Program-made: the position numbers and the translations under genes | Origin: a virus | Reading direction: 5' to 3' (one strand) | Length of the DNA: 29,721 nucleotides | IMG/VR virus record: IMGVR_UViG_3300028388_002143 | Coordinates: 1 to 29,721 of that record | In this document: piece after piece, positions 7,777 through 25,501 of the stretch | Layout of the letters: each line of letters begins with the position of its first letter | Numbering within the stretch: position 1 is the stretch's first letter | The notes under the pieces: generated by a model | Told to the model about the DNA's origin: nothing | The model's input: only the letters and a program-made list of their open reading frames with translations | Database searches by the model: none

Positions 7777-9977
7777 TGCAGCGCGTTCGCACGCCGTACA
7801 CAAACTTTGCCTTTGGCGAGGTTTCTCCTTCTGTCAAATCGCGGACGGACACGCCGATCTATCAGTCGTCGGCTTTGAAGTGCAGCAACGTGGTGCAGCT
7901 TCCCGAGGGTGGTTTGAAGCGCAGGTATGGCACCAAGCGTCTCTATGATTTTGCAATCACCAAGGATGTAACCAAGACGCTTCAGTCAAAGCTGTTTTCG
8001 TTTATCTTCCAGTCTGACGAGCGTTACATTGTCAGCATCGAGGATGCTCGCGTTCGCGTGTTTCAGCTCACTGCGTCTGGCGTGACCTTGGTTGCCAACC
8101 TGACGCAGGACACGGATTCGGATGCCCTGCCGTTCGATCACGACTTCATCCATGAATACACGGCTGCTCAATATGGCGATGTAATGATCATCTGCCATCC
8201 GCTCTTTGCGCCGCGGCAGCTTGTTCGTACCGGCCTTACAAACTTCGAAGTCAGGAAGTTTGTCTTTGATCAGAACAACAGCTCGACGGTGAATTACCAG
8301 CCGTACACCAAGTTCTCTTCTTCGAGCACTACGCTTGCGCTGAGTGGCACGACTGGCTCTGTTACCATGACGTGTAGTGAGGATCTGTTTACCGCGGATC
8401 ATGTCGGGACTGTGTTCCAGTATGGCGACTCAGAAGTTCAGGTTACCGCGGTAACGAATGCAACGACTGCCACTGGCACGATTGCGGGCGAAGCAAAGAT
8501 CAGGCTTGAGATCTTGAACCCGATCAGGACAATCGAGGGGCAGACAACTCTCGAAATCACGCACTTAAGCCACGGGTTTTCCGGTGGTGAAACAATCACG
8601 ATTGAGGACAGCAGTGCTGTTGGTGGGGTTTCTGCGAGCAACATTAACGGGTCACGGACGATTGGGGCGATTCTTGATGAGAACACTTACACTGTAACAG
8701 GCGGCGCTACTGCCACGGACTCGGCTGATGGTGGTGGCATTGTGAGCATCGTGACTGGTGCGGCCACGCGCAACTTTGCGGAGCAGGCGTTTTCTGCCGT
8801 GCGCGGGTATCCTGCGGCGGTATGCTTTCACGAAAACCGTCTTGTTTTTGGCGGTACGATTTCTCAGCCTGACGCGATCTGGATGAGCAGGACCGGGCTG
8901 TTTTACAACTTTGATATTGGGGATGCGTCTGACTCTGATGCAATCAATCTGGTTGCTGGCATTAACGTGGTGCATGAAATCCGCTACCTTGTGTCAAACA
9001 AGGACTTGCAGATCTTCAGCTCTGCGGGGGAACTGTATGTTCCCATTTACCTGAACCAAGCCATTACGCCGACGAATGCTCAGCTGCGGCAGCAGACTCC
9101 GTTTGGCTGCGAGTTTGTGGATCCCGTGGTTCTGGACTCTGCCACGTTGTATCACCCGCTGGGTGGGACTGGCTTGAGGGAGTACATCTACACGGATGAT
9201 GAGGATGCTTATACGTCGACGAACGTTTCAAGCATTGCGTCACATCTTCCGCGAAACATGACAACGGGAACGGTTATCAACGGGGGGTTTAACAATGGCG
9301 AGAGTTATGCGCTCTTCACGACGAAAGAAGATCGCGCCGTTGTCTTCACCTCCAACCGAGCAGAAAGACGAGCCGGCTTCACCCGGTTTGAAAGTGAAGG
9401 AACGTTTTATTCGATCTGCGCGGTGGATGACAGGCTCTTCTGTTCGGCGTGGTTCGACACCGGATCGGGAGAGGAGCTGATTCTTGCAGAGTTCTTGGAA
9501 GCCAATCAGCTCGATTGCGCTAAGACTTACGCGCTCACGGCCGGGGTCGCAGATGTCTCTGCTGATTTTGCAAACGGAACAGAAGTCCATGCCGTTGTCG
9601 CAAGAGGAACAACCTACGATCATCTCGGAACGTTTACCGTTACTGCGGGAGAAGTAGACCTGAGTGCTGTGACTGACGAGTCGGAAGCCGAGATTGGCTT
9701 TGCTTTCTATGTCAGCATTGACTCCTTGCCGATTGACCAGATGCTTCAGACAGGGCCTCAGACGGGTGAGCCTCGAGGTATTATCTTGGTCGTTGCTGAT
9801 CTGGTGGATACCCGGAACATCAAGATCAATGAGTATCCTGTAACCACCACTGATCCGATTAACGGCAAGCGGGAGGTTTATGTGAGTGGGTACGAGCGAG
9901 ACCCGCAGGTAATAATTACGCAGGATTTGCCGTTGCCGTTCCAGTTGAACGGGTTTGTTGCGGAGGTTGTGATCTGA
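7776..9977 (+). CDS. Tail nozzle protein (T7 gp12-like, tubular protein B)
   Basis: A 733-residue tail nozzle, slightly shorter than T7 gp12. The N-terminus TPYTNFAFGEVSPSVKSRTD, then SNVVQLPEGGLKRRYGTK, is the hallmark of this family. About residues 262-330 resemble an E1-FCCH-type beta module often inserted in such proteins: THLSHGFSGGETITI, then INGSRTIGAILDENTYTV. VCFHENRLVFGGTISQPDAIWMSR (about 348-371) is another conserved block. The nozzle sits below the gp11 ring, anchors fibres and closes the DNA channel. It starts on the gp11 stop and its own stop overlaps the next start, so the three genes are probably translated together. Confidence 0.93.
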   Translation: MQRVRTPYTNFAFGEVSPSVKSRTDTPIYQSSALKCSNVVQLPEGGLKRRYGTKRLYDFAITKDVTKTLQSKLFSFIFQSDERYIVSIEDARVRVFQLTASGVTLVANLTQDTDSDALPFDHDFIHEYTAAQYGDVMIICHPLFAPRQLVRTGLTNFEVRKFVFDQNNSSTVNYQPYTKFSSSSTTLALSGTTGSVTMTCSEDLFTADHVGTVFQYGDSEVQVTAVTNATTATGTIAGEAKIRLEILNPIRTIEGQTTLEITHLSHGFSGGETITIEDSSAVGGVSASNINGSRTIGAILDENTYTVTGGATATDSADGGGIVSIVTGAATRNFAEQAFSAVRGYPAAVCFHENRLVFGGTISQPDAIWMSRTGLFYNFDIGDASDSDAINLVAGINVVHEIRYLVSNKDLQIFSSAGELYVPIYLNQAITPTNAQLRQQTPFGCEFVDPVVLDSATLYHPLGGTGLREYIYTDDEDAYTSTNVSSIASHLPRNMTTGTVINGGFNNGESYALFTTKEDRAVVFTSNRAERRAGFTRFESEGTFYSICAVDDRLFCSAWFDTGSGEELILAEFLEANQLDCAKTYALTAGVADVSADFANGTEVHAVVARGTTYDHLGTFTVTAGEVDLSAVTDESEAEIGFAFYVSIDSLPIDQMLQTGPQTGEPRGIILVVADLVDTRNIKINEYPVTTTDPINGKREVYVSGYERDPQVIITQDLPLPFQLNGFVAEVVI

Positions 9978-10501
9978 TGTTTGCCGCTATTGGCCTTATG
10001 ACTTCTGTGGTTTCCGCGATGGCCGGCATGAGTGCCGCCGAGGGTCAGGCGCGCGCTGCCGAGCTGAACGCAGAGAATATCGAGACCGAGAAACTGATGA
10101 ACGACGTGGTTGCGTATCAGCGTTCCAATGATCGGTTTCGTGAGTATGAGCTTGCTGACTCGGCCAACCGTGCCTTGATGGGCGGTTCGATGGGGCGTGA
10201 TCTTGGCGAGGATCGTTCTGTTCAGGCGTTCTTGAACCGCAATCGTGAGACGGTCGGTCGTGACATGCAGCGCATTGATGTGCAGCGCAACATGGAAGGT
10301 TTGAAGCTGGACATGCAGGCGGCATCTGAGCGGCGTCGTGCGTCTGATATTCGCGCGTCTGGCACTGTAAATGCGTTTACAACGATTGTTGGTGGCTTGA
10401 TGAATTATCAGGACACGCGGTTTGCGCCAAGTCGAACTGGTGGAATGAACAGTACGTCCTTGTCGTCTTCGATGCGGCCGCTTCCAAACCCAAGGTATTA
10501 A
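9977..10501 (+). CDS. Internal virion protein, gp14-like
   Basis: A 174-residue protein. A short hydrophobic, Ala/Gly/Met-rich start (FAAIGLMTSVVSAMAGM) is followed by a long helical section (residues 18-115) rich in Ala, Glu and Arg, and a Ser/Pro-rich tail. T7 gp14 is the internal protein ejected first to form a pore in the outer membrane. Size, the Ala-rich amphipathic start and the position directly before two very large proteins match. The sequence itself is weakly conserved in this family, so the name comes from order and composition. It starts on the nozzle stop (TGATG). Confidence 0.78.
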   Translation: MFAAIGLMTSVVSAMAGMSAAEGQARAAELNAENIETEKLMNDVVAYQRSNDRFREYELADSANRALMGGSMGRDLGEDRSVQAFLNRNRETVGRDMQRIDVQRNMEGLKLDMQAASERRRASDIRASGTVNAFTTIVGGLMNYQDTRFAPSRTGGMNSTSLSSSMRPLPNPRY

Positions 10502-13500: not shown

Positions 13501-13883
13501 ACGATCAGGCTGTGCTAAACGAGTCAGGAATGCAGTATGGCCCTGACGCTATCAACACTGAGTGGATTACTTTCCTTGAGGACATGGGGCCTGTTGGGGA
13601 TGGGCAGAACCGTGTGTACGCTGTTCGCCAGATGACGCGGGATGGTTTGCGTGTCAGACCGGTAATGAACACGTCTTACGAAGTTAACGGTGAATATGAG
13701 GAACTTTGGATCAGCACTGCTGAAGAGCCTTTTGTTTCCAGAACCGAAGCGCTTCGTGAGCGCAGGGTTAAAGTGCAAATGACGTTGGGAATGGTTCGTG
13801 AGCGTATGGGTGAAGCGCTAAGGTCCAATGCTCGCAATGCCGGGAATCTTGTGTTTCCTGATATGCTGGAGACGTTGCAGTAA
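10503..13883 (+). CDS. Internal virion (ejection) protein, gp15-like
   Basis: A 1126-residue protein, considerably longer than T7 gp15 (747). Most of it is helical and rich in Ala, Glu, Gln and Arg. The start TRIGVQPVYEGSRAAQAAQQGF, then FFQWAEQDAREGAQELA, is the typical helical opening of these ejected proteins. An acidic, Ser/Gly/Val-rich stretch at about residues 205-300 (for example SSQSGPEGSVAFEGDAPPSF) looks like an inserted beta or disordered module. I see no lytic transglycosylase motif. In T7, gp15 and gp16 form the periplasmic tunnel for DNA entry. The stop overlaps the start of the next gene (TAATG). Confidence 0.85.
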   Translation: MVITAPRVNRESTAIRNTRIGVQPVYEGSRAAQAAQQGFQQISSRFFQWAEQDAREGAQELAASMPRNEIVGIDPETGEPLAFSNLSGLGRVASSAYRRVITARYQQSIEEDMRNRGAILAEQHRNDPQGFTEVFGNYIDSMAQHAGGQWRGFVENAGASYLARTQTAMTIQQMRASRASLAAATRRASEEATASLNMTARTYGLEAFTSPGSVPAASSGGSGFVGEVTLSSQSGPEGSVAFEGDAPPSFSFVGGETSDLALAVGDFMMPTEELVVQEGSPAGEIIVSSHVGSQDAVEAAVVDESWLAQQGPAQRTAISQGILWNWAQGLDPNSSEDRTRLEIVNGAFKSHNPYRAAMVMGEEYLPVFSHLFANEAAADDFGSYAGEILGPMDTMFGDVQAANQEAAAQSAELFRNRSEARAPFIANDSAYVVRNMPAGQVSFFVDEIVRRQAHERQVVIPGELEDDLRAGDLAILNAELAGVERGLLERLTRGRTTEEIDNFQEAIANDEIQFTGEEGALIRGIRSLARLDGEVRNRANTFLGSAASNEGANVSEREREAHTIQLDAARPEVMRQIANAPIDQLDGFIQSLEAQTANLNVLSSDRDSILSQARENIMSRYGNQAMLYAESTEEVTAIESALKFPNQATAQMLLDAGLDPRSVSMIEAYRNVGAQAGGQPTMERIAGNVTPAYRNTWTAIEQNREESSLVYRSIAGLGDASTADGRRYAQTGAELMYDRTLEVLREELDAFGGGPIPYPSEMPSDFWTSRAYQQDPRFEPLRQMLNTQGFMPEGLHSALERLANGSVFAQEGYDPAVVADYWRNVRTMEQDGLVVTNPSVLSLSVDERARLDVLSEAYYTFGEEGFVRAQQNIEALDADWTPAWLPEGENIESWMVRNVDGYSELAPEQRANMRIIASYLSVSPGGIGAGRMQNSLQSNLNETYAPTGGYVRTYGASGRLIARTAHPLSTVTHNRADEFIQYARQNIIAYSDIEPVFEQDDQAVLNESGMQYGPDAINTEWITFLEDMGPVGDGQNRVYAVRQMTRDGLRVRPVMNTSYEVNGEYEELWISTAEEPFVSRTEALRERRVKVQMTLGMVRERMGEALRSNARNAGNLVFPDMLETLQ

Positions 13884-16800
13884 TGGCTGTTCGTCCGAGT
13901 GAAATCCTGACGGCTCAGCCTGAGTCTGGTGCGTTCAACGTTCATCGTTCTCCGACTTGGCTTGAGACGCTTTCGGATACGGCCGGCACTTACATTGCTG
14001 GTCCCGCGACCGCTTCTGCGCGCATGGTCGCTTACGAGGATGATCCAAACTATGTCGGGCGTGAAAACATTCCCGAAGGTTACGAGCTTGAGGCAAGCTA
14101 CTTTTTCAACTCGGGATCTCCGGAAGAGACGGAAGCTATCAAGAGCTTTGTCGACCAAAGTCGTGCGCGCCGGCAAAGGCTGAACCGCGCGCCTTTCATG
14201 CAGCAGATCTCAACAGAGATCGTAAATCCTGTAAACCTTCTGGCGCTGCCTGTAGCGCCTGTCAGGGCCGCGACTGGTGCTGTCAGGATAGGACAGACCA
14301 TGTTGCGCTCTGGCGGCGCTGCTGCGGCCGTTGAGGCTGGCTTGCAAGCTGGTGTGCTTGCAACTGACCCTGCTTCTTCCTTTGAGGAAAGCGCGTTTAG
14401 TGTTGCCAGTGTTTATGCGTTTGGGTCTGCCTTGAGTGGCTTGACGTTGATTCCGCTGGCGCGTCGTCAGGCTGCAACGGAACAAATGCGTACGCAGCAC
14501 GAAACAATGCAGCGTGTGGCAGCACGTCTGGATGGCGTTCAGAACATTCCGCGCAGCAATCTTGAGGATTTTGCCCCGGCTGAATCTCGTCCTCTTGGTG
14601 CTGATGAGGGTGTTGTCGAGCGCTATCAAGAGTTGCAGGGATTGATTGATGAGCGCCAAAGAATGCTTGCCGATCCGAATACGGACGCGGATTTCGTGGC
14701 GCGTATCGAGGATGAGATCGAGCAGTTTCGAACTGAGCAGCAGGCTTACAGCCAAGAGCTGATGATGCGCGCGTTGGAGGACGAGGGTTTTGATCTTTCG
14801 GATCCTCTTCGCCCTTCTGACGGTGTGAACAACTGGGCGTTTGACTGGGTTACAAATCCAATGCGGCGAGCGCTTGGAAGGGCGCTTCCGACTTCTGTAA
14901 AGCGTCAGTTCCTTGAGCTTGCCGGGGATGGTGGTGTTCAGCTTCGCGTTCACGAAATGGGAGTTGCCCTTCCTCATTCGGTGCATCAGGCCGCGACAAC
15001 CGAGATGGGTAATTTTCTCAGGATGAGCGATGCCCTTGATGCTCTTTGGCGAGAGGACACGGGCGCTCCCCCTGTTGGAACGCTCATGGGAAACAGGAAC
15101 TTCAATGCGACAGACATAGCGCGGCGTATGCAGCGCACTGGCGACACGCTTGAAGATTGGGTTACTCGGATTTCAGAAGCGCGGGTAATGCAAGAGAACC
15201 TGACGGGTCCGCAGGCGCAGGCCGTCAAGATTCTTGATCAGTACATGTTGGACTACGAGCAGCGTCTTTCTGATTCCGGCCTGCTTATGAACAACAAAAT
15301 TCTGGATGATCGGATTGAAAAGCTTGAAGCGGAGATGGATGCGCTTCAGGCTCGGATTGACAATCCGCAGTCTCGCGCTGATGTGCGCGCCGCTGAGCGT
15401 CAGTTTTATTCTGCGCGCCGGGAGCTTCAGGAATACAGGATCGCAAGAGAGCAGGGATCGCGTGCGATTGACCGCATAGAGCCAATGTTCCCGCGGTATT
15501 GGAACAAGCAGGCTGTTCGCCAGAATCGCGAAGAGCTTCGGGAGGTTCTCGTAAACTGGTTCCGGAGAAATCCAGAGGTCTGGGAGTATGACAAACCGTC
15601 TCGGGGTTACGTAAAGCGGCAGCTTAACGTTGATGAGGGTTCTCTTCGCGCGCGTGCCGAGCGCACGATTGACAACATTCTTGAGGAAAATCAGTTCAAC
15701 GAAGGCGCGGAAGTTTTTACCGGATCTGGTCGCGCTGGGCATACCGGGTTTCGAAAGCTGGACATTCCGAACAGTCTTGTCTGGAAGTTCATGGAGCAAA
15801 ACCCGATTGCGGTTATGCGGAACTACACGGCTCGCACGGCTCCCCAGATACAGTTTGCCAAACAGTTTGGCGGCAATATCGAAGCTGTGAAGGAGCGGAT
15901 GCGCGCGCAAATGGACGCTGAGGGCGTTCCGTTGAGACAGCAGCAGGCTACGATCAGGGATTTTCAGCATCTTTATGATCGCGTTGTCGGCGTTGTTCTT
16001 AAAAACCCTGACACGCTGGATCAGAAAATCGCAGCGGTTTTGCGTGAGCTTACGTCAACCACTTACTTGGGCGCTGCTGGCGTTGCAGCTATTGGTGACA
16101 TGGGCAGGATTGCGATGGAGCATGAGATGCCCACGCTGGTGAAATCCCTGCAAGGCATGATGGATCCTGCCATTCGCCGGTTGAGTTCTGACGAGATTCG
16201 GTGGCTTGGTGGCGCGTCTGAAATGGCGAACGGGTCTGCAATGCTGCGCGTTGTTGATGACCAGAACTTCAACTACCTTCAGGGCCGCGCAATGGACAGG
16301 GCGCGCAACATTTTCCACACGGTGAACCTTCTTGGTCCTGTGACTGTTGTTGCAAAACATTTTGCTGGATCTGTTGGTGGACATGCACTGATCGATTACT
16401 CGCGCAAGCTTGCCCAAGGCGTCGCGTCTCAGTTTGAGATTACCTACCTTGCGCGTCACGGTATTGATGAGGCGATGGCGCGTCGCATTGCTTCTGCGCC
16501 TTGGCAGCGGGATCCCAAGTCTGATCTGATTCTTCCTAATACGGATGCATGGTCACGCCAGCCTGCGCTTCAAACTCGGCGCGGTGATCGTGTTGATGTT
16601 CTCGACGAGCTGCCGGAAGAAGGTGATCTGGTTCAGTTTAATCCTGAGACCAACACGCTTGTGATGGATCGTCAGGCGGTCATGGATGAGTTTCCCGAGC
16701 GTCCTTGGACTGTGCCGTCTCGCGTTACGAACAACCGGAATGTTCGCAGGCGTGTAATTATGGATCGGTTTGATGAGCAGCCGTGGACGGAAGCGCCTTA

Positions 16801-18379
16801 CAACCTGCGGCCGGATGACATTCAAACGCCGGAGCAGTTTGAGAACTTCCTTGCCTTGTATGAGTCTCGCTTGTTTCAGGATGAGACTTTCTTGAATCAG
16901 CAGCGTTCTCTCTTTGCTTTGAGTGAAGAAGAGATGCTTCGTGAGGTGCAGCAGCAGTACAAGGTTGATCGGATCATTACGGACCCTGAGATTGTTCGTA
17001 ATGTTTTTGATCGTCAGGCTGAAGGTGGAGCAAATCCAAATCCTTTGGGCCGGCACATTTACTTTGAGGGAGAGGGCGGCACTGTTTACCTTAACTTTCC
17101 AAAGATGCGGGAGTTTTGGGAAAGCTTCAGACAGTTTGCTGAAGGCAAAACTTCTCAAGAAATGATGGCTTCGCTCCGTGCAGGTTATGAAGATGGCTTT
17201 ATACCACAGATAAATCTCATCCATCGTGTAAATCTGGTTCAGAACAAGCAGCTTCTTGAGAACTTCAATGACTTTGCCGAGTTTGTTTTGTTCCATGAGT
17301 TGAACCACGGACCTAACGGTGGCCGTCCTTGGGATTACTCCACGACAACCGAGCTTGAGGAAATGGTTGATCGCGCTGGTATGCGTGACTTGAACCGGCG
17401 TCAGGCTGAGCGTGCAAAGGCAGATGCTGTTGCACGTCGGTATTCTCTTGAGGCTTCAAACGGCGGAGCGCTTCCTGAGAATGCGTTTGAAACGCCTGAT
17501 GACTGGGCGAACTTCAGGGCAATGGAGGCAATTGTTGAAGCGGATCCCATTTTCTCCAATCGATCGCTGGGACTGGATGGACGCAGAAACGCGGATCGTT
17601 CACTCCGTAGAGTTGCAATACAAAGAGAAACAATGCGCCGTCTTCGTGAAGCCGTACGGGACAACGATGATCTTGTTAATACTTTCCGCCGCGCTCTCAA
17701 CACCAACGTCAACAACGTGGTGATGGCTGCAACGGCGGCTGACAAACCAATCATCATGGATGGCGTCGTCTACCTGCGTACGGACAATCCCTTGGCGCGT
17801 TTGATGGGGCTTGAAGAAAACAAGGCAACACCGGGGTACGCTCGGATTGAGAACGGATTCCTGGCGCTTCCCTTGCAGTTCTTCAGTTTCACGCTTGCGA
17901 ACGTAAACAAGACAATGGGCCAGATGATGCAAGGTGCTGTTCGCAATCGCCTTGCTGGCGTGGTTGCCATGATGGGCTTGGGCTACATGATTTCGGCAGC
18001 TCGAACTCCTGATTACGTGTGGAACGACATGGCTCCGCAAGACAAGTTTGCCCGTGCGTTTGACATGTCTGGCATAGCAGCTCTGTATTCTGATCTGTTC
18101 TACACGGGAATGCAGACATCGCTTGCTTTGGGTGGCCCGAACATTACGGGTGGTGTTTTCCAGCCGCGGTATCCGCAGGATCCAAACATTCCCGACGCGA
18201 TCACGAACGTCACCGGTGCTGCATCGAGCTGGAGCTTGGACATGTATCGTTCGATGGAGCAGTTTGCGCAGGGAAATTATGGTGAGGGCGCAAGCCAGTT
18301 TATTCGAAACTTACCCTTCTCGAATGTGTGGTTCATCAGGGATGACGTGAATCAGCTTGGAAGGTATCTTAGCCAGTAG
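13883..18379 (+). CDS. Giant internal virion protein, gp16-like, with metalloprotease-type motif
   Basis: A 1498-residue protein, larger than T7 gp16 (1318). Helical ejection-protein features run through it, with an Ala/Val-rich, membrane-friendly stretch at about residues 114-165. The C-terminal block (about 1262-1498) is typical of gp16-like proteins: TFRRALNTNVNN, ADKPIIMDGVVYLR, then FFSFTLANVNKTMGQ. T7 gp16 has an N-terminal transglycosylase, but no such motif is visible here. Instead, residues 1138-1142 read HELNH, a zinc HExxH motif, with Glu1157 and Glu1160 as candidate third ligands. This lies in about 370 residues (891-1260) that look inserted between LPNTDAW (884-890) and the C-terminal block. 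The insert also has a short repeat, MDEFPERPWT (934) and MDRFDEQPWT (960). Protease activity is inferred only. Confidence 0.85.
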   Translation: MAVRPSEILTAQPESGAFNVHRSPTWLETLSDTAGTYIAGPATASARMVAYEDDPNYVGRENIPEGYELEASYFFNSGSPEETEAIKSFVDQSRARRQRLNRAPFMQQISTEIVNPVNLLALPVAPVRAATGAVRIGQTMLRSGGAAAAVEAGLQAGVLATDPASSFEESAFSVASVYAFGSALSGLTLIPLARRQAATEQMRTQHETMQRVAARLDGVQNIPRSNLEDFAPAESRPLGADEGVVERYQELQGLIDERQRMLADPNTDADFVARIEDEIEQFRTEQQAYSQELMMRALEDEGFDLSDPLRPSDGVNNWAFDWVTNPMRRALGRALPTSVKRQFLELAGDGGVQLRVHEMGVALPHSVHQAATTEMGNFLRMSDALDALWREDTGAPPVGTLMGNRNFNATDIARRMQRTGDTLEDWVTRISEARVMQENLTGPQAQAVKILDQYMLDYEQRLSDSGLLMNNKILDDRIEKLEAEMDALQARIDNPQSRADVRAAERQFYSARRELQEYRIAREQGSRAIDRIEPMFPRYWNKQAVRQNREELREVLVNWFRRNPEVWEYDKPSRGYVKRQLNVDEGSLRARAERTIDNILEENQFNEGAEVFTGSGRAGHTGFRKLDIPNSLVWKFMEQNPIAVMRNYTARTAPQIQFAKQFGGNIEAVKERMRAQMDAEGVPLRQQQATIRDFQHLYDRVVGVVLKNPDTLDQKIAAVLRELTSTTYLGAAGVAAIGDMGRIAMEHEMPTLVKSLQGMMDPAIRRLSSDEIRWLGGASEMANGSAMLRVVDDQNFNYLQGRAMDRARNIFHTVNLLGPVTVVAKHFAGSVGGHALIDYSRKLAQGVASQFEITYLARHGIDEAMARRIASAPWQRDPKSDLILPNTDAWSRQPALQTRRGDRVDVLDELPEEGDLVQFNPETNTLVMDRQAVMDEFPERPWTVPSRVTNNRNVRRRVIMDRFDEQPWTEAPYNLRPDDIQTPEQFENFLALYESRLFQDETFLNQQRSLFALSEEEMLREVQQQYKVDRIITDPEIVRNVFDRQAEGGANPNPLGRHIYFEGEGGTVYLNFPKMREFWESFRQFAEGKTSQEMMASLRAGYEDGFIPQINLIHRVNLVQNKQLLENFNDFAEFVLFHELNHGPNGGRPWDYSTTTELEEMVDRAGMRDLNRRQAERAKADAVARRYSLEASNGGALPENAFETPDDWANFRAMEAIVEADPIFSNRSLGLDGRRNADRSLRRVAIQRETMRRLREAVRDNDDLVNTFRRALNTNVNNVVMAATAADKPIIMDGVVYLRTDNPLARLMGLEENKATPGYARIENGFLALPLQFFSFTLANVNKTMGQMMQGAVRNRLAGVVAMMGLGYMISAARTPDYVWNDMAPQDKFARAFDMSGIAALYSDLFYTGMQTSLALGGPNITGGVFQPRYPQDPNIPDAITNVTGAASSWSLDMYRSMEQFAQGNYGEGASQFIRNLPFSNVWFIRDDVNQLGRYLSQ

Positions 18380-18686: not shown

Positions 18687-21069
18687 ACTGGTCTCCCCTT
18701 TAGGCGGCATTCAATCTCCGTTTGGTCCGCAAAGCGGCACCTCCCTGTCGTCCTTCGCCGTGAATGGTGTAGAGCCTCAGATTGTCTTTGATGCTGCGAC
18801 TGGCACCTACAAGAAGAACGCCGCGAATACGAACTTCTCCGGCCTGTTCACAACGAACACGACCACCAGTTCTCTCAAAACTATGGTGAACTCGGCAGGA
18901 AAGCTTGTGTGGGCACCGCATAACTTGCTGCCAAGGTCGGAGGATATTGGAGTAAATTGGGTTGTTAGCGGCGCGCTCGACGGGACAAAAACCTTTGGAG
19001 TTGCGGACCCAGAGGGCGGCACCAAGGCCGCTAGAATAACACCAAACACGGGCACGGGCGATTGCTATTTATCTCGAAATATCGCAGTAACGCCGGTCGC
19101 GGTTGGCGCTCAATATACAAATACTTGGATCATACGCGCGGGCGATTTCAGGTATTTCCGAGTTATTTGGGACGGGATCAGTTTCAAAGGTGTTTCTTTT
19201 GATACACAGACGCTCACTGTCTCTGACCCCAGTTCTGGGCTTACGGTTGATAACGGCTCCATTTCTGATTTGGGCGGAGGTTGGTTTTCGCTGACGCTAA
19301 CTGCGGTCGCATCCGGCGCAGGTGGCGACTGGCGGATTTATGTGCTGGACGCGATTGGAAGCATCAACGTCACTGGCGACAGCGCGAAATCTTTCGATGT
19401 TGCCTTCCCCCGCGTCTACCGCTCCGACCTCGGCGGCATGGCGGACAACCCGGATCGCGGGGATAGCTACGTCCCCACCACCTCCAGCGCCGTCTATATG
19501 GGCAGGGCACCGAGCGCCGTCACCGGAGAAGGTGGGCACTACCGCTATGACCCCGTGACAGCGGCATGGGTGAACAAGGGCATCCTGCTGGAGGGCGATG
19601 CACGGACGAACCTGCTAGAGCAGAGCAATGACTTTTCGACCGGGTGGACGAACACGAAATCAACAGAAGCGCAAAACGCTACCGGCCCGGACGGAGTTGC
19701 CAACTCCGCTTGGACAGTGACAGATGACGGCGGTGGCGGGACGGCAAATGACGCAAGATTAGTGCGAAACATTACTGTTGCAACATCAACCACATATGCT
19801 TTTTCTATATACATCAAGGCTGGCGGGGTGTCTTGGGCGCGGCTTTATTCAACTGGCTTAACGACCCCAGCAGATTTTGCTGGCGTAAATTTCGATTTGG
19901 CAACCGGCGCTGTCGGAACAGAAGGCACGGGGTTTACGGGGTATATTGAGGATGCCGGGAACGGCTGGTTTAGATGTTCGGTGGTTTTCACGACGGATGC
20001 TGTAGACACTTCGGGGGTTTTTTATGTTAGCTTGGCGTCAAGCGACATTTCAACAGTTGTAGACCGCGACGGCACCTCTTCCATCCTAGTCTACGGCGCA
20101 CAGTTCGAAGCCGTCACCGCAGGCACCCCCTATCCCTTGTCCTACATCCCCACGAATGGGGCCACCTACACGCGGGCCGCTGAGACCCTGCAGGTCGACG
20201 CTGCGAATATGCCGGATTACCAGACGCCCAACGTGATCGGGCCGGAACTGGTGACAAACGGTGACTTAGCCGGTGGCGACACTGGTTACATAGAAGCTGG
20301 TGGGGCATGGGTTTTTCAAAACGGGCGCGCAGAAATTGCTTCTGCATCCGGTTTTGATAGCTTTGGGCAAGGCATCATTGGTATAGACGCTGGCAAAGCT
20401 TACCTTTTCGAGTTTGATTACAATGTAACAAGTGGAAGCATTTCTGCATCTCTTAGTGGCCCCGGATCAGGGTTTTCTAGGTTAGGACAGTTCACTGGAA
20501 GTGGTCGTGCGTCTCTTGTGTGCAGCCGTTTAGGATCACAAAGCGATGGGTTCCATATTCGACAAGACAACGGCGCAACTGGTTGGGTAGACAACATCTC
20601 TGTCCGCGAGATCGACCCCCTCGCCGTGAGCATCTATATGCGGGGGGAGGTGAGCTATGGGGACTCGGACTCGGCGATTGGCAATTATGGGGGCAACCCG
20701 CAGCTTTATCTATGGCTTGTTGACGCTAACAATTATGTAAACGCTGGCGTGGACACCTTTAGCACGCGGACAGGCCGCGTAGAGTTTAGCCAAGGGGCTG
20801 CGGGAGTGCATGACGAGGGTCGGTTTGACGCCGCGCTTTCTCCAGCACAAAACGCCCCTTTCTCTATCGCAGCCCGCCACGGCTCCACCTTCATCAACGG
20901 TGCAGTGGACGGCACTGCCCTGACAGCGGACACGACACCCACGGCGCTGGCTGACCTATCTGCGACGAACTTTTACGTCGGCGCTATAAACTTCAACGGC
21001 ACCATCGAAGCTATAAGAGTATTTGCCGGAGATGTAGGTGACACGGGCCTAGAGGACTTGACATCATGA
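18679..21069 (+). CDS. Tail fibre/adhesin with repeated ligand-binding modules
   Basis: A 796-residue protein. The start RKLVSPLGGIQSPFGPQSG resembles the openings of fibre-like proteins in Rhodobacterales phages and prophages. Two related modules follow: one from NLLPRSED (about residue 81) to YRSDLG...GDSYVPTTSSAVYMGRAP, and one from NLLEQSND (311) to YGAQFEAVTAGTPYPLSYIP. A third begins ELVTNGDL (523) and ends WVDNISVREID. The last 150 residues look like a LamG/concanavalin-type domain (VSIYMRG...INGAVDGTALT). All are beta-sandwich types that often bind carbohydrate. Likely role: host surface recognition. Codon use differs from the ejection genes, especially after 19380, which suggests exchange. 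The stop overlaps the next start (ATGA). Confidence 0.82.
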   Translation: MRKLVSPLGGIQSPFGPQSGTSLSSFAVNGVEPQIVFDAATGTYKKNAANTNFSGLFTTNTTTSSLKTMVNSAGKLVWAPHNLLPRSEDIGVNWVVSGALDGTKTFGVADPEGGTKAARITPNTGTGDCYLSRNIAVTPVAVGAQYTNTWIIRAGDFRYFRVIWDGISFKGVSFDTQTLTVSDPSSGLTVDNGSISDLGGGWFSLTLTAVASGAGGDWRIYVLDAIGSINVTGDSAKSFDVAFPRVYRSDLGGMADNPDRGDSYVPTTSSAVYMGRAPSAVTGEGGHYRYDPVTAAWVNKGILLEGDARTNLLEQSNDFSTGWTNTKSTEAQNATGPDGVANSAWTVTDDGGGGTANDARLVRNITVATSTTYAFSIYIKAGGVSWARLYSTGLTTPADFAGVNFDLATGAVGTEGTGFTGYIEDAGNGWFRCSVVFTTDAVDTSGVFYVSLASSDISTVVDRDGTSSILVYGAQFEAVTAGTPYPLSYIPTNGATYTRAAETLQVDAANMPDYQTPNVIGPELVTNGDLAGGDTGYIEAGGAWVFQNGRAEIASASGFDSFGQGIIGIDAGKAYLFEFDYNVTSGSISASLSGPGSGFSRLGQFTGSGRASLVCSRLGSQSDGFHIRQDNGATGWVDNISVREIDPLAVSIYMRGEVSYGDSDSAIGNYGGNPQLYLWLVDANNYVNAGVDTFSTRTGRVEFSQGAAGVHDEGRFDAALSPAQNAPFSIAARHGSTFINGAVDGTALTADTTPTALADLSATNFYVGAINFNGTIEAIRVFAGDVGDTGLEDLTS

Positions 21070-21824
21070 GCATCGACCTTCTAATCCAATCCGGCACCAA
21101 GCTGGCAATCGAAGACTGGCTCAAAGCCCGTGGCCTCATGGTGCGCGACACTTACACCACGACAGACATCGAGACGCTTGAGGAAACCATCACCGGCTAC
21201 TCGGAATGGCGGCTGGCTCCCGGTGTGCAGTTCCACTGGTGGAACCATCCCGATGGCAAGATCACCAGCAGCATCGACAACACCGACCCCGAGAACCCTG
21301 TCGTCACGCAGTTCTCCGGCTTCTACGGACGCCTAAGCCTCGACAGCATCCCTTCTGCCCTCAAGACATGGGTGGAGACAAGCACGGCCACAGCGGTCTT
21401 GGAGAGCTTCAACGGTGTAGGCGGCGAGGGCATTGTGATCCTGAACCCCGAGGACGTGTATGGCTACCTCACGACCAACTCCCTGCCGATCTGGGGTGGG
21501 CTGCTTGGCGTGGCGAACCAGTGGTCTGACCCTGCGCTCTGGGCTTTCCAGAACGTGATGACGGGCGACCAGCGTGAGTTCGGTGGCGTGACGTTTGAGA
21601 GCCTTATCGACTTCAACGTTTGGACCCCAAGTCAGTATCCGCAGGGGTGGCAGGAAGTGGTTGTGGAGCCGCCTGCTGGTCCCGCTGAGTGGGCCGCAGG
21701 CACTACCTACGCGGCGGGCGACGAAGTGACATACGAAGGCACCACCTACCGCTGTATTCAGGGCCACACGGCTATCGTGGGCTGGCAACCGCCTAACGTC
21801 CCGGCATTGTGGGGTGTTGTATGA
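21066..21824 (+). CDS. Fibre-associated protein with C-terminal chitin-binding-like module
   Basis: A 252-residue protein. The last 50 residues match the CBM5/12 (chitin-binding type 3) pattern: AEWAAGTTYAAGDEVTYEGTTY, then RCIQGHTAIVGWQPPNVPALW, with the aromatic residues of the binding strip present. The first 190 residues are an unrecognised domain containing WRLAPGVQFHWWNHPDG and FWTPSQYPQGW-type aromatic clusters. The gene begins on the stop of the large fibre gene with GAGGA upstream, so both are probably co-translated. Likely a second receptor-binding component or a fibre tip or chaperone. It ends at the homing endonuclease start (ATGA). Codons are C-rich, unlike the core virion genes. 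Confidence 0.78.
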   Translation: MSIDLLIQSGTKLAIEDWLKARGLMVRDTYTTTDIETLEETITGYSEWRLAPGVQFHWWNHPDGKITSSIDNTDPENPVVTQFSGFYGRLSLDSIPSALKTWVETSTATAVLESFNGVGGEGIVILNPEDVYGYLTTNSLPIWGGLLGVANQWSDPALWAFQNVMTGDQREFGGVTFESLIDFNVWTPSQYPQGWQEVVVEPPAGPAEWAAGTTYAAGDEVTYEGTTYRCIQGHTAIVGWQPPNVPALWGVV

Positions 21825-24279: not shown

Positions 24280-24917
24280 CTGATGAAAACAAGACCAAGT
24301 TTATTGCTGCGATTACAGAGCATCTTCGGTTTGTTGCTGCGCTGTCTGTATCCTTGTCTCTTCTTGGCACCATCATATGGTGGGCGTTTGGTCCGCGCAT
24401 AGAAGAGAACGCGCGTATTCTTGTTGGCACTGATGAGCTGAAAGAGATTGTGATTCAGCAGGGTGTGCGGCTGGATCAGAACGTTGAAGCTCTCAATGGA
24501 TTGAGCGAGCGCATCACTGCAATGGAGCCATCGCCTGCTGTTGCTGAGTACGACATACTGCGCTCAAGCATAGATGAGACATGCATTGCTGGTCAGGTTT
24601 GCCGCTACACATACCGGGTGCGTCGCACTGATGAGGGGAGTAGTTGCGGTGTGCCATCTGCACAGCGTGTTCTTATTGACGCCAGCGGCACGACACATTT
24701 TCCCCAGCTGCCATCTAACGCTCCAAGAGCAACACGGCTCAGTGATGAGTGGTCGATTGTCTCTTCCAGCTTTGTTGTGCCGCGGCGCGTGGTGCCCGGT
24801 GTTGCAGAGTTCTCCTTGCAGATCACCTACCCTGATTGTGACCGGGATATTCTTGGGCGCGTTGTTGTGGTAGAAGAGAGTCCACATCTGATCTTTATAA
24901 TTGGGAGATCTGAATGA
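24276..24917 (+). CDS. Membrane-anchored periplasmic protein in the lysis block, unknown function
   Basis: A 213-residue protein with a TTG start overlapping an 18-codon leader frame. One membrane segment lies at about residues 18-38 (RFVAALSVSLSLLGTIIWWAF). A short coiled-coil-like helix follows (50-84), then a beta-rich domain with four cysteines (103, 109, 124, 188) that could form two disulfides outside the cytoplasm. The positively charged N-terminus suggests the tail is periplasmic. It overlaps the endolysin start (ATGA). Position suggests a lysis regulator, antiholin-like or envelope protein, but there is no recognised domain. The alternative ATG at 24283 is in another frame that closes early. 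Confidence 0.7.
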   Translation: MTDENKTKFIAAITEHLRFVAALSVSLSLLGTIIWWAFGPRIEENARILVGTDELKEIVIQQGVRLDQNVEALNGLSERITAMEPSPAVAEYDILRSSIDETCIAGQVCRYTYRVRRTDEGSSCGVPSAQRVLIDASGTTHFPQLPSNAPRATRLSDEWSIVSSSFVVPRRVVPGVAEFSLQITYPDCDRDILGRVVVVEESPHLIFIIGRSE

Positions 24918-25501
24918 GGAAGTTCGATACGATCATCATTCATTGCGCGGCAACTCCTCCGCACTGGATGGCTGGTTCTAGCACTGTTGCCCAGATGAAA
25001 GAGATTGATCGATGGCACAAAGACCGCGGCTGGAGTGGCATTGGCTATCACTACGTGATCGGCCGTGATGGCACGGTGGTCAAGGGCCGGCACCTCAACA
25101 AGACGGGCGCGCACACCAAGGGGCACAACACTGGATCCGTTGGTGTGTGTCTGGTTGGTGGCAAAGGTGGTGTTCGAACTGACAAGTTTGCAGATCACTT
25201 TACGCCTGAGCAGGAGCTGGCGCTCAAGGCTTTGATTAGCGATCTGTGCGAGAAGTACCCGGCAATCAAGCACATCAAAGGACACAACGATTATACCAAC
25301 CTTAAGGGATGCCCATCCTTTACTGTTTCTGAATGGTTGAAGGGTGACAACGGTGTGAGTGGAACCCCTGTGTTCAGGTCTGTTCGAAAAGATCCTTACA
25401 ACGGGCAGAAGCCAGGAATGTTTACAGAACAGGAAGCAAAGAAAGGAGGAATCATTGCCCTGATCGTTGCGGCGATTGCGGCATTGATTGCATTCAGATG
25501 A
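24914..25501 (+). CDS. Endolysin: T7-lysozyme-like N-acetylmuramoyl-L-alanine amidase with C-terminal membrane segment
   Basis: A 195-residue amidase that cuts the bond between MurNAc and L-Ala in peptidoglycan. Zinc ligands are His10 (IIIHCA), His124 (KGHND) and Cys133 (KGCPSF). Tyr45 or Tyr47 (GYHYVIGRDG) and Lys131 match the catalytic positions of T7 lysozyme. The amidase domain ends near 145. An extra 50 residues follow, ending in a hydrophobic run GGIIALIVAAIAALIAF (178-194), a likely C-terminal membrane anchor absent from T7 lysozyme. It starts on the preceding stop (ATGA) and its stop overlaps the holin start. T7 lysozyme also inhibits T7 RNA polymerase, but no polymerase is seen here, so only the lytic role is claimed. 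Confidence 0.93.
   Translation: MRKFDTIIIHCAATPPHWMAGSSTVAQMKEIDRWHKDRGWSGIGYHYVIGRDGTVVKGRHLNKTGAHTKGHNTGSVGVCLVGGKGGVRTDKFADHFTPEQELALKALISDLCEKYPAIKHIKGHNDYTNLKGCPSFTVSEWLKGDNGVSGTPVFRSVRKDPYNGQKPGMFTEQEAKKGGIIALIVAAIAALIAFR

Follow-up and report, generated by a model that had tools for sequence, protein, structure and literature searches.

Does a zinc-protease-type motif (HELNH) within a T7-gp16-like ejection protein mark an enzyme that enters the host with the phage DNA, or is it a coincidence of sequence? The locus lies in a 29,721-nucleotide stretch of DNA (IMG/VR virus record IMGVR_UViG_3300028388_002143, positions 1 to 29,721), referred to here as the window, and the late region of this 29.7-kb virus record is T7-like (Table 1). 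The ORF that carries the motif reads without interruption over its 1498 amino acids, and its identity as a gp16-like protein is indicated both by the PHROG_342 profile match and by a gene order in which it follows gp14 and gp15. The profile match ends at residue 897, where the segment in question starts. The ORF in the gp15 position had no PHROG match and no Pfam match reaching the curated cutoff.

Table 1. Features of the window relevant to the gp16-like protein and its insertion. Residue numbers refer to the 1498-aa gp16-like protein.
Feature	Residues	Position in window	Strand	Basis
Late-region genes: terminase, head-tail connector, capsid, tail tubular proteins, gp14-like, gp15-position ORF, gp16-like ORF, tail-fibre-like ORF, amidase
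gp14-like internal virion protein		9977..10501	+	PHROG_418, E 8e-5
gp15-position ORF, 1126 aa		10503..13883	+	Gene order only
T7-gp16-like ejection protein, 1498 aa, in which the insertion lies	1-1498	13883..18379	+	PHROG_342, E 7e-34, residues 23-897; sits after gp14-like and gp15-position ORFs
coreN block	600-891	15680..16555	+	Alignments and profiles; kept in homologues with and without the insertion
Dead type-A zincin-like remnant; YESRL where relatives have HEIMH	892-1000	16556..16882	+	Type-A profile, 20.9 bits, reached by 0/1779 shuffles; alignments
Intact type-B zincin-like domain	1001-1185	16883..17437	+	Type-B profile built without the window, 61.8 bits; AlphaFold
HELNH; predicted zinc ligands H1138 and H1142, predicted general base E1139	1138-1142	17294..17308	+	Both His and the Glu invariant across 20 type-B domains
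E1159-x-x-V-D1163; predicted third ligand and helix motif (relatives: E..[IV][ND])	1159-1163	17357..17371	+	E1159 invariant in 20 type-B domains; spacing after HExxH
Region with second dead type-A remnant; match at 1196-1218, ALPENAFETPDDWANFRAMEAIV	1186-1265	17438..17677	+	Type-A profile, 12.9 bits, reached by 0/1831 shuffles
coreC block, where the gp16-like protein resumes (LPLQFFSF.. block)	1266-1498	17678..18379	+	Adjoins coreN in insert-free homologues

Comparison with distant homologues delimits an extra segment of ~374 aa (residues 892-1265). Four of these homologues come from named phages (Pelagibacter phage Hodr, Microcystis phage Mwe-JY08, Escherichia phage EC.W1-9, and Vibrio phage PG9A-2), and in them the LPNTDxW block is followed almost directly by the next conserved block. 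In the IMG/VR relatives L030-L036 the same stretch measures 65-68 residues versus 432 in the window. Since all of these proteins span the site with little between the blocks, the segment is an insertion relative to them. The original prediction of about 370 inserted residues is thus borne out, and LPNTDAW does lie at residue 884 as it had stated. The downstream block, which it had placed from about 1262, lies somewhat further on, with TFRRALNTN beginning at 1267 and ADKPIIMDG at 1286.

The insert, located in the C-terminal half of the protein, is composite rather than a single domain. Two homologous forms of the domain were distinguished among the relatives: type A, which is compact (~130 aa), and type B (~190 aa). 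Their profiles match each other with an hhalign probability of 98.7, and the match pairs HExxH as well as the downstream E..[IV][ND]. In the window, an intact type-B domain is flanked by two type-A remnants, both of which are without HExxH. The GC3 of the type-B part is 0.465 versus 0.56 in the preceding core, a difference that might weakly hint at a later arrival of this part, which comprises 185 codons only.

The HELNH motif was found at residues 1138-1142 directly after the hydrophobic stretch FAEFVLF (1131-1137), exactly as originally described. It should be noted that an HExxH motif alone is weak evidence, because 1.3% of shuffles of the gp16-like protein yield one. Single-sequence scans with the whole protein or with the insert returned no matches, and alignments were required to find relatives. 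A scan with core-alignment patterns located away from the motif, and thus blind to it, returned 80 relatives, the nearest of which share best segments of 28-33% identity and up to 52% in the C-terminal block. Nearly all of the nearest relatives contain HExxH in an insertion at the same site, in the form HEIMH, HEVMH, HELMH, HELHH, or HEMFH. Close homologues that share the segment and lack HExxH, which would have spoken against a metallopeptidase, did not appear except for the degenerate L023, whose dead type-A copy reads REIMH. Likewise, a scan with patterns from the N-terminal part of type B, outside the motif, recovered only intact type-B copies, all in gp16-like proteins. Where loci had been found with patterns overlapping HExxH, their intact motif was left out of the evidence for conservation in favour of these motif-blind scans.

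An alignment of 20 type-B domains that are 16-23% identical to the window contains only five invariant columns, G1056, H1138, E1139, H1142, and E1159. The invariant downstream glutamate is therefore E1159 (TEL-E-EMVD), and not E1157 or E1160 as had been proposed for the third ligand. It follows the HExxH motif by 16 residues in the window and by 14 in most type-B domains. A default MAFFT alignment (A3) placed Glu 1203 in this column; the local-pair alignment and alignment A4 were preferred because their glutamate spacing is consistent. L024-like proteins have an additional HEYVH that is not part of the active-site helix and was taken as incidental. In close pairs of sequences the domain has dN/dS values of 0.04-0.21, indicating strong purifying selection. 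The invariance of HE..H and E1159 across such divergent domains, together with a confidently predicted zincin-like topology (see below), leads us to reject the idea of a chance HExxH in an unrelated insertion, to which we assign a vanishingly small probability despite the frequency of the motif in shuffles. A conserved zincin-like domain is almost certainly real.

AlphaFold modelled window residues 996-1203 with a pLDDT of 88.7 and a pTM of 0.85. The modelled chain runs through strand-helix-strand-strand and a helical excursion into the HExxH helix, after which comes a long Glu helix. E1159 falls in the predicted helix that follows HExxH; according to DSSP, the HExxH helix of this model stops two residues short of the second histidine. 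The model of a type-A member (pLDDT 85.9) has strands, an HExxH helix spanning the motif, and a Glu helix. Both types are thus confidently predicted to have a zincin-like topology. The original prediction had proposed structure prediction followed by a search against metallopeptidase folds, and the first of these supports it; Foldseek found no significant match to a solved metallopeptidase, or to anything else in the PDB, for either domain type. The highest-probability PDB match of the type-A model was selecase (4qhj; probability 0.30, E 1.4, TM 0.35-0.43; not significant), and TM1509 (YbeY-like) was also among its non-significant matches. Both are zincin-like structures, and these matches weakly back a zincin-like fold. 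The best BFVD match was A0A516LDX4_1 (probability 1.00, E 9e-3, TM 0.46). Sm D2, the sole PDB profile match, covered the N-terminal half of the domain with weak E-values and was taken as chance.

Searches of the Pfam, PHROG, NCBIfam, and PDB families gave no significant match to the inserted domain, and one scan with a type-B alignment returned no relatives in cellular genomes. The lack of a Pfam match is neither proof of novelty nor of an unrelated fold, because Pfam also misses the metallopeptidase domain of phage N4. PF18818 (MPTase-PolyVal) matched neither the window nor its relatives, a silence that says little alone because the PF18818 control search matched nowhere either.

HExxH domains in phage-injected proteins are already known from polyvalent proteins and from the N4 virion RNA polymerase (PMC5512222, PMC12633501). 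The zincin-like MPTase domains that Iyer et al. (2017, PMC5512222) described in polyvalent proteins resemble the window domain in having an HExxH helix and a Glu helix after a small sheet, the same layout as predicted here, and in belonging to proteins coinjected with phage DNA; autoprocessing or effector roles have been proposed for them (PMC5512222). In contrast, the window domain belongs to T7-gp16-like proteins, where it has two exchangeable types, three sites, and dead copies, and it has no PF18818 match. Polyvalent proteins join several unrelated enzymatic domains in a single injected polypeptide; the window protein has one predicted enzymatic domain, and the type-A domain of its relative L016 may nest a further, ADP-ribosyltransferase-like segment. 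The HExxH (C1) domain of the N4 virion RNA polymerase is likewise a domain with a zincin signature in a podophage ejection protein (PMC12633501, PMC5512222). However, it has no profile relation to the window domain (hhalign probability 4, with only the HExxH stretch aligned), and the next conserved glutamate motif in N4-like proteins (NEFMA) lies ~75 residues past HExxH versus 14-16 in the window domain family. A third comparison is with the minigluzincins (selecase, PDB 4qhj), which share a very small HExxH plus Glu scaffold. They are archaeal stand-alone peptidases and are not known as insertions in phage proteins. A literature search with partial journal coverage found no published description of such a domain in T7-gp16-like proteins.

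The domain occupies three alternative places in gp16-like proteins: (i) between coreN and coreC, as in the window, (ii) directly before coreN, and (iii) in the N-terminal third. All type-B matches on sufficiently long contigs fall inside gp16-like ORFs, and no protein was seen with more than one intact copy. In a tree of the core blocks, reconstructed by a quick method, site (i) carriers of types A and B are sisters, with L007 (A) and L017 (B) grouping at a support of 99, and L013 and L016 (A) falling beside L019, L022, and L098 (B) at a support of 100. The site labels also require several changes on this quick tree. Hodr and its relatives (L036-L040, L050-L052, and L058) have a type-A domain at site (iii) in which neither histidine of the motif remains ([KR]E[IV]x[RK]).

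As a separate observation, synonymous divergence of the domain exceeds that of the core in two pairs of relatives (dS 0.43 versus 0.11 for L100 and L102; 0.56 versus 0.10 for L108 and L118), as though recombination had exchanged the domain. The gp16-like ORF of L139 has two type-B matches, at residues 839-882 and 1000-1100, the first of which is partial and without HExxH, and this is perhaps another arrangement of an intact copy plus a remnant like that of the window.

The dead copies bear on whether the domain is catalytic at all. It could merely bind metal or keep its fold, with a structural or binding function in the virion core, and for some relatives this is indicated, because the dead type-A copies at site (iii) retain YEN..N in those aligned and are under purifying selection (dN/dS 0.17). 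On the other hand, the general-base glutamate and the three predicted ligands are the most conserved residues in intact copies, which a structural role does not require. We therefore regard a non-catalytic role as improbable for the intact domain, which very probably is, as predicted from its conserved residues, an active zinc peptidase.

Such a peptidase might cut its own polypeptide or its gp14/gp15-like partners, either while still in the head or once ejected, resulting in core maturation or domain release. Self-processing has been proposed for the metallopeptidases of polyvalent proteins, with P1 DdrB being cut before packaging (PMC5512222), and it is also in line with the lack of a recognisable prohead protease in the window ORFs scanned. 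However, three different places of the domain sit poorly with one fixed cis cut site, close relatives (L023 and the Hodr group) have dead copies, and the N4 virion RNA polymerase, whose metallopeptidase domain is a different one, enters the virion uncut (PMC5512222). For these reasons self-processing seems unlikely, although less so than a non-catalytic role.

Alternatively, the domain could have a periplasmic target, either peptidoglycan cross-links or envelope proteins, and so replace the N-terminal transglycosylase of T7 gp16. The likeness of the window protein to T7 gp16 and to PHROG_342 proteins lies in the carrier protein, the gene order, and the conserved core blocks; T7 gp16 has the transglycosylase, a feature called phage-specific (PMC8954989), and no described HExxH insertion, whereas the window lacks the former and has a zincin-like cassette inserted. 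The original observation that gp15 and gp16 contain no transglycosylase motif agrees with the Pfam and PHROG searches, neither of which found such a domain in these two proteins, and with the PHROG_342 alignment, which starts only at profile position 222. Nevertheless, the transglycosylase and the insert do not trade places, since the insert-free gp16 proteins of EC.W1-9, Vibrio phage PG9A-2, and Hodr are also without a transglycosylase. In addition, the insertion lies in the gp16-C part, and peptidoglycan peptidases mostly belong to other families. Envelope clearing is thus the least probable of the roles considered for the domain, slightly behind a non-catalytic one.

On balance we favour, at somewhat better than even odds, reading the composite cassette as an injected zinc (gluzincin-like) metallopeptidase with a host protein as its most likely substrate in trans. 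In the predicted active site, H1138, H1142, and E1159 would bind a single Zn2+ and E1139 would activate water. As part of the gp16-like protein, the domain would be carried in the virion core, be ejected either together with the DNA or before it, and cut its host protein at the inner membrane or in the host cytoplasm. We infer zinc binding, peptidase activity, the place of action, and a host target from the evidence presented here. Delivery to the inner membrane or cytoplasm is suggested by the position of site (i), which maps near residues ~1030-1075 of T7 gp16 in weak alignments (8.8 and -0.1 bits) and so falls in gp16-C (411-1118), which has been modelled in the host cytoplasm after ejection (PMC8954989). 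Support for action in trans comes from the same domain at three sites, no more than one intact copy, the exchange of A and B between sister lineages, and the repeated loss of both histidines. Tolerance of three sites, exchangeable versions, and repeated death would be less expected of a fixed self-cleavage or a structural part than of an effector directed at a host target that changes. It should be noted that the dead copies also count against this reading, because they mean that some phages of the group do without the activity.

The way in which related phages keep, swap, move, and lose the domain suggests that a protease is injected at the start of infection. More tentatively, the cassette may be an exchangeable, position-switching injected zinc peptidase of T7-like phages with arms-race turnover, in which one site alternates between types A and B, the active copy relocates among three sites, and spent copies persist dead, possibly as decoys or regulators. 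Internal virion proteins are located in hypervariable islands of marine phages (PMC3909814, PMC6487183), a location left unexplained in PMC3909814, and cassette exchange, if true, would be one possible reason for it. Ejection proteins are usually viewed as conduits with an optional cell-wall-cutting domain; under the reading proposed here, gp16-like proteins would be carriers of effectors acting in the first moments of infection.

Several further observations were made at these loci. In L016 (8860-9700), ~220 extra residues (TYFVHFTRKQNVESLLKNGYDL...GNVMYFTQ...) with no Pfam match are nested in the type-A domain between HEIMH and YENAIN, and by eye this segment resembles an ADP-ribosyltransferase fold. 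In the window, the protein after the tail-fibre-like ORF (21066-21824) has a C-terminal carbohydrate-binding module of the chitin-binding type (CBM_5_12, E 1e-18), and an Amidase_2 endolysin is encoded at 24914-25501.
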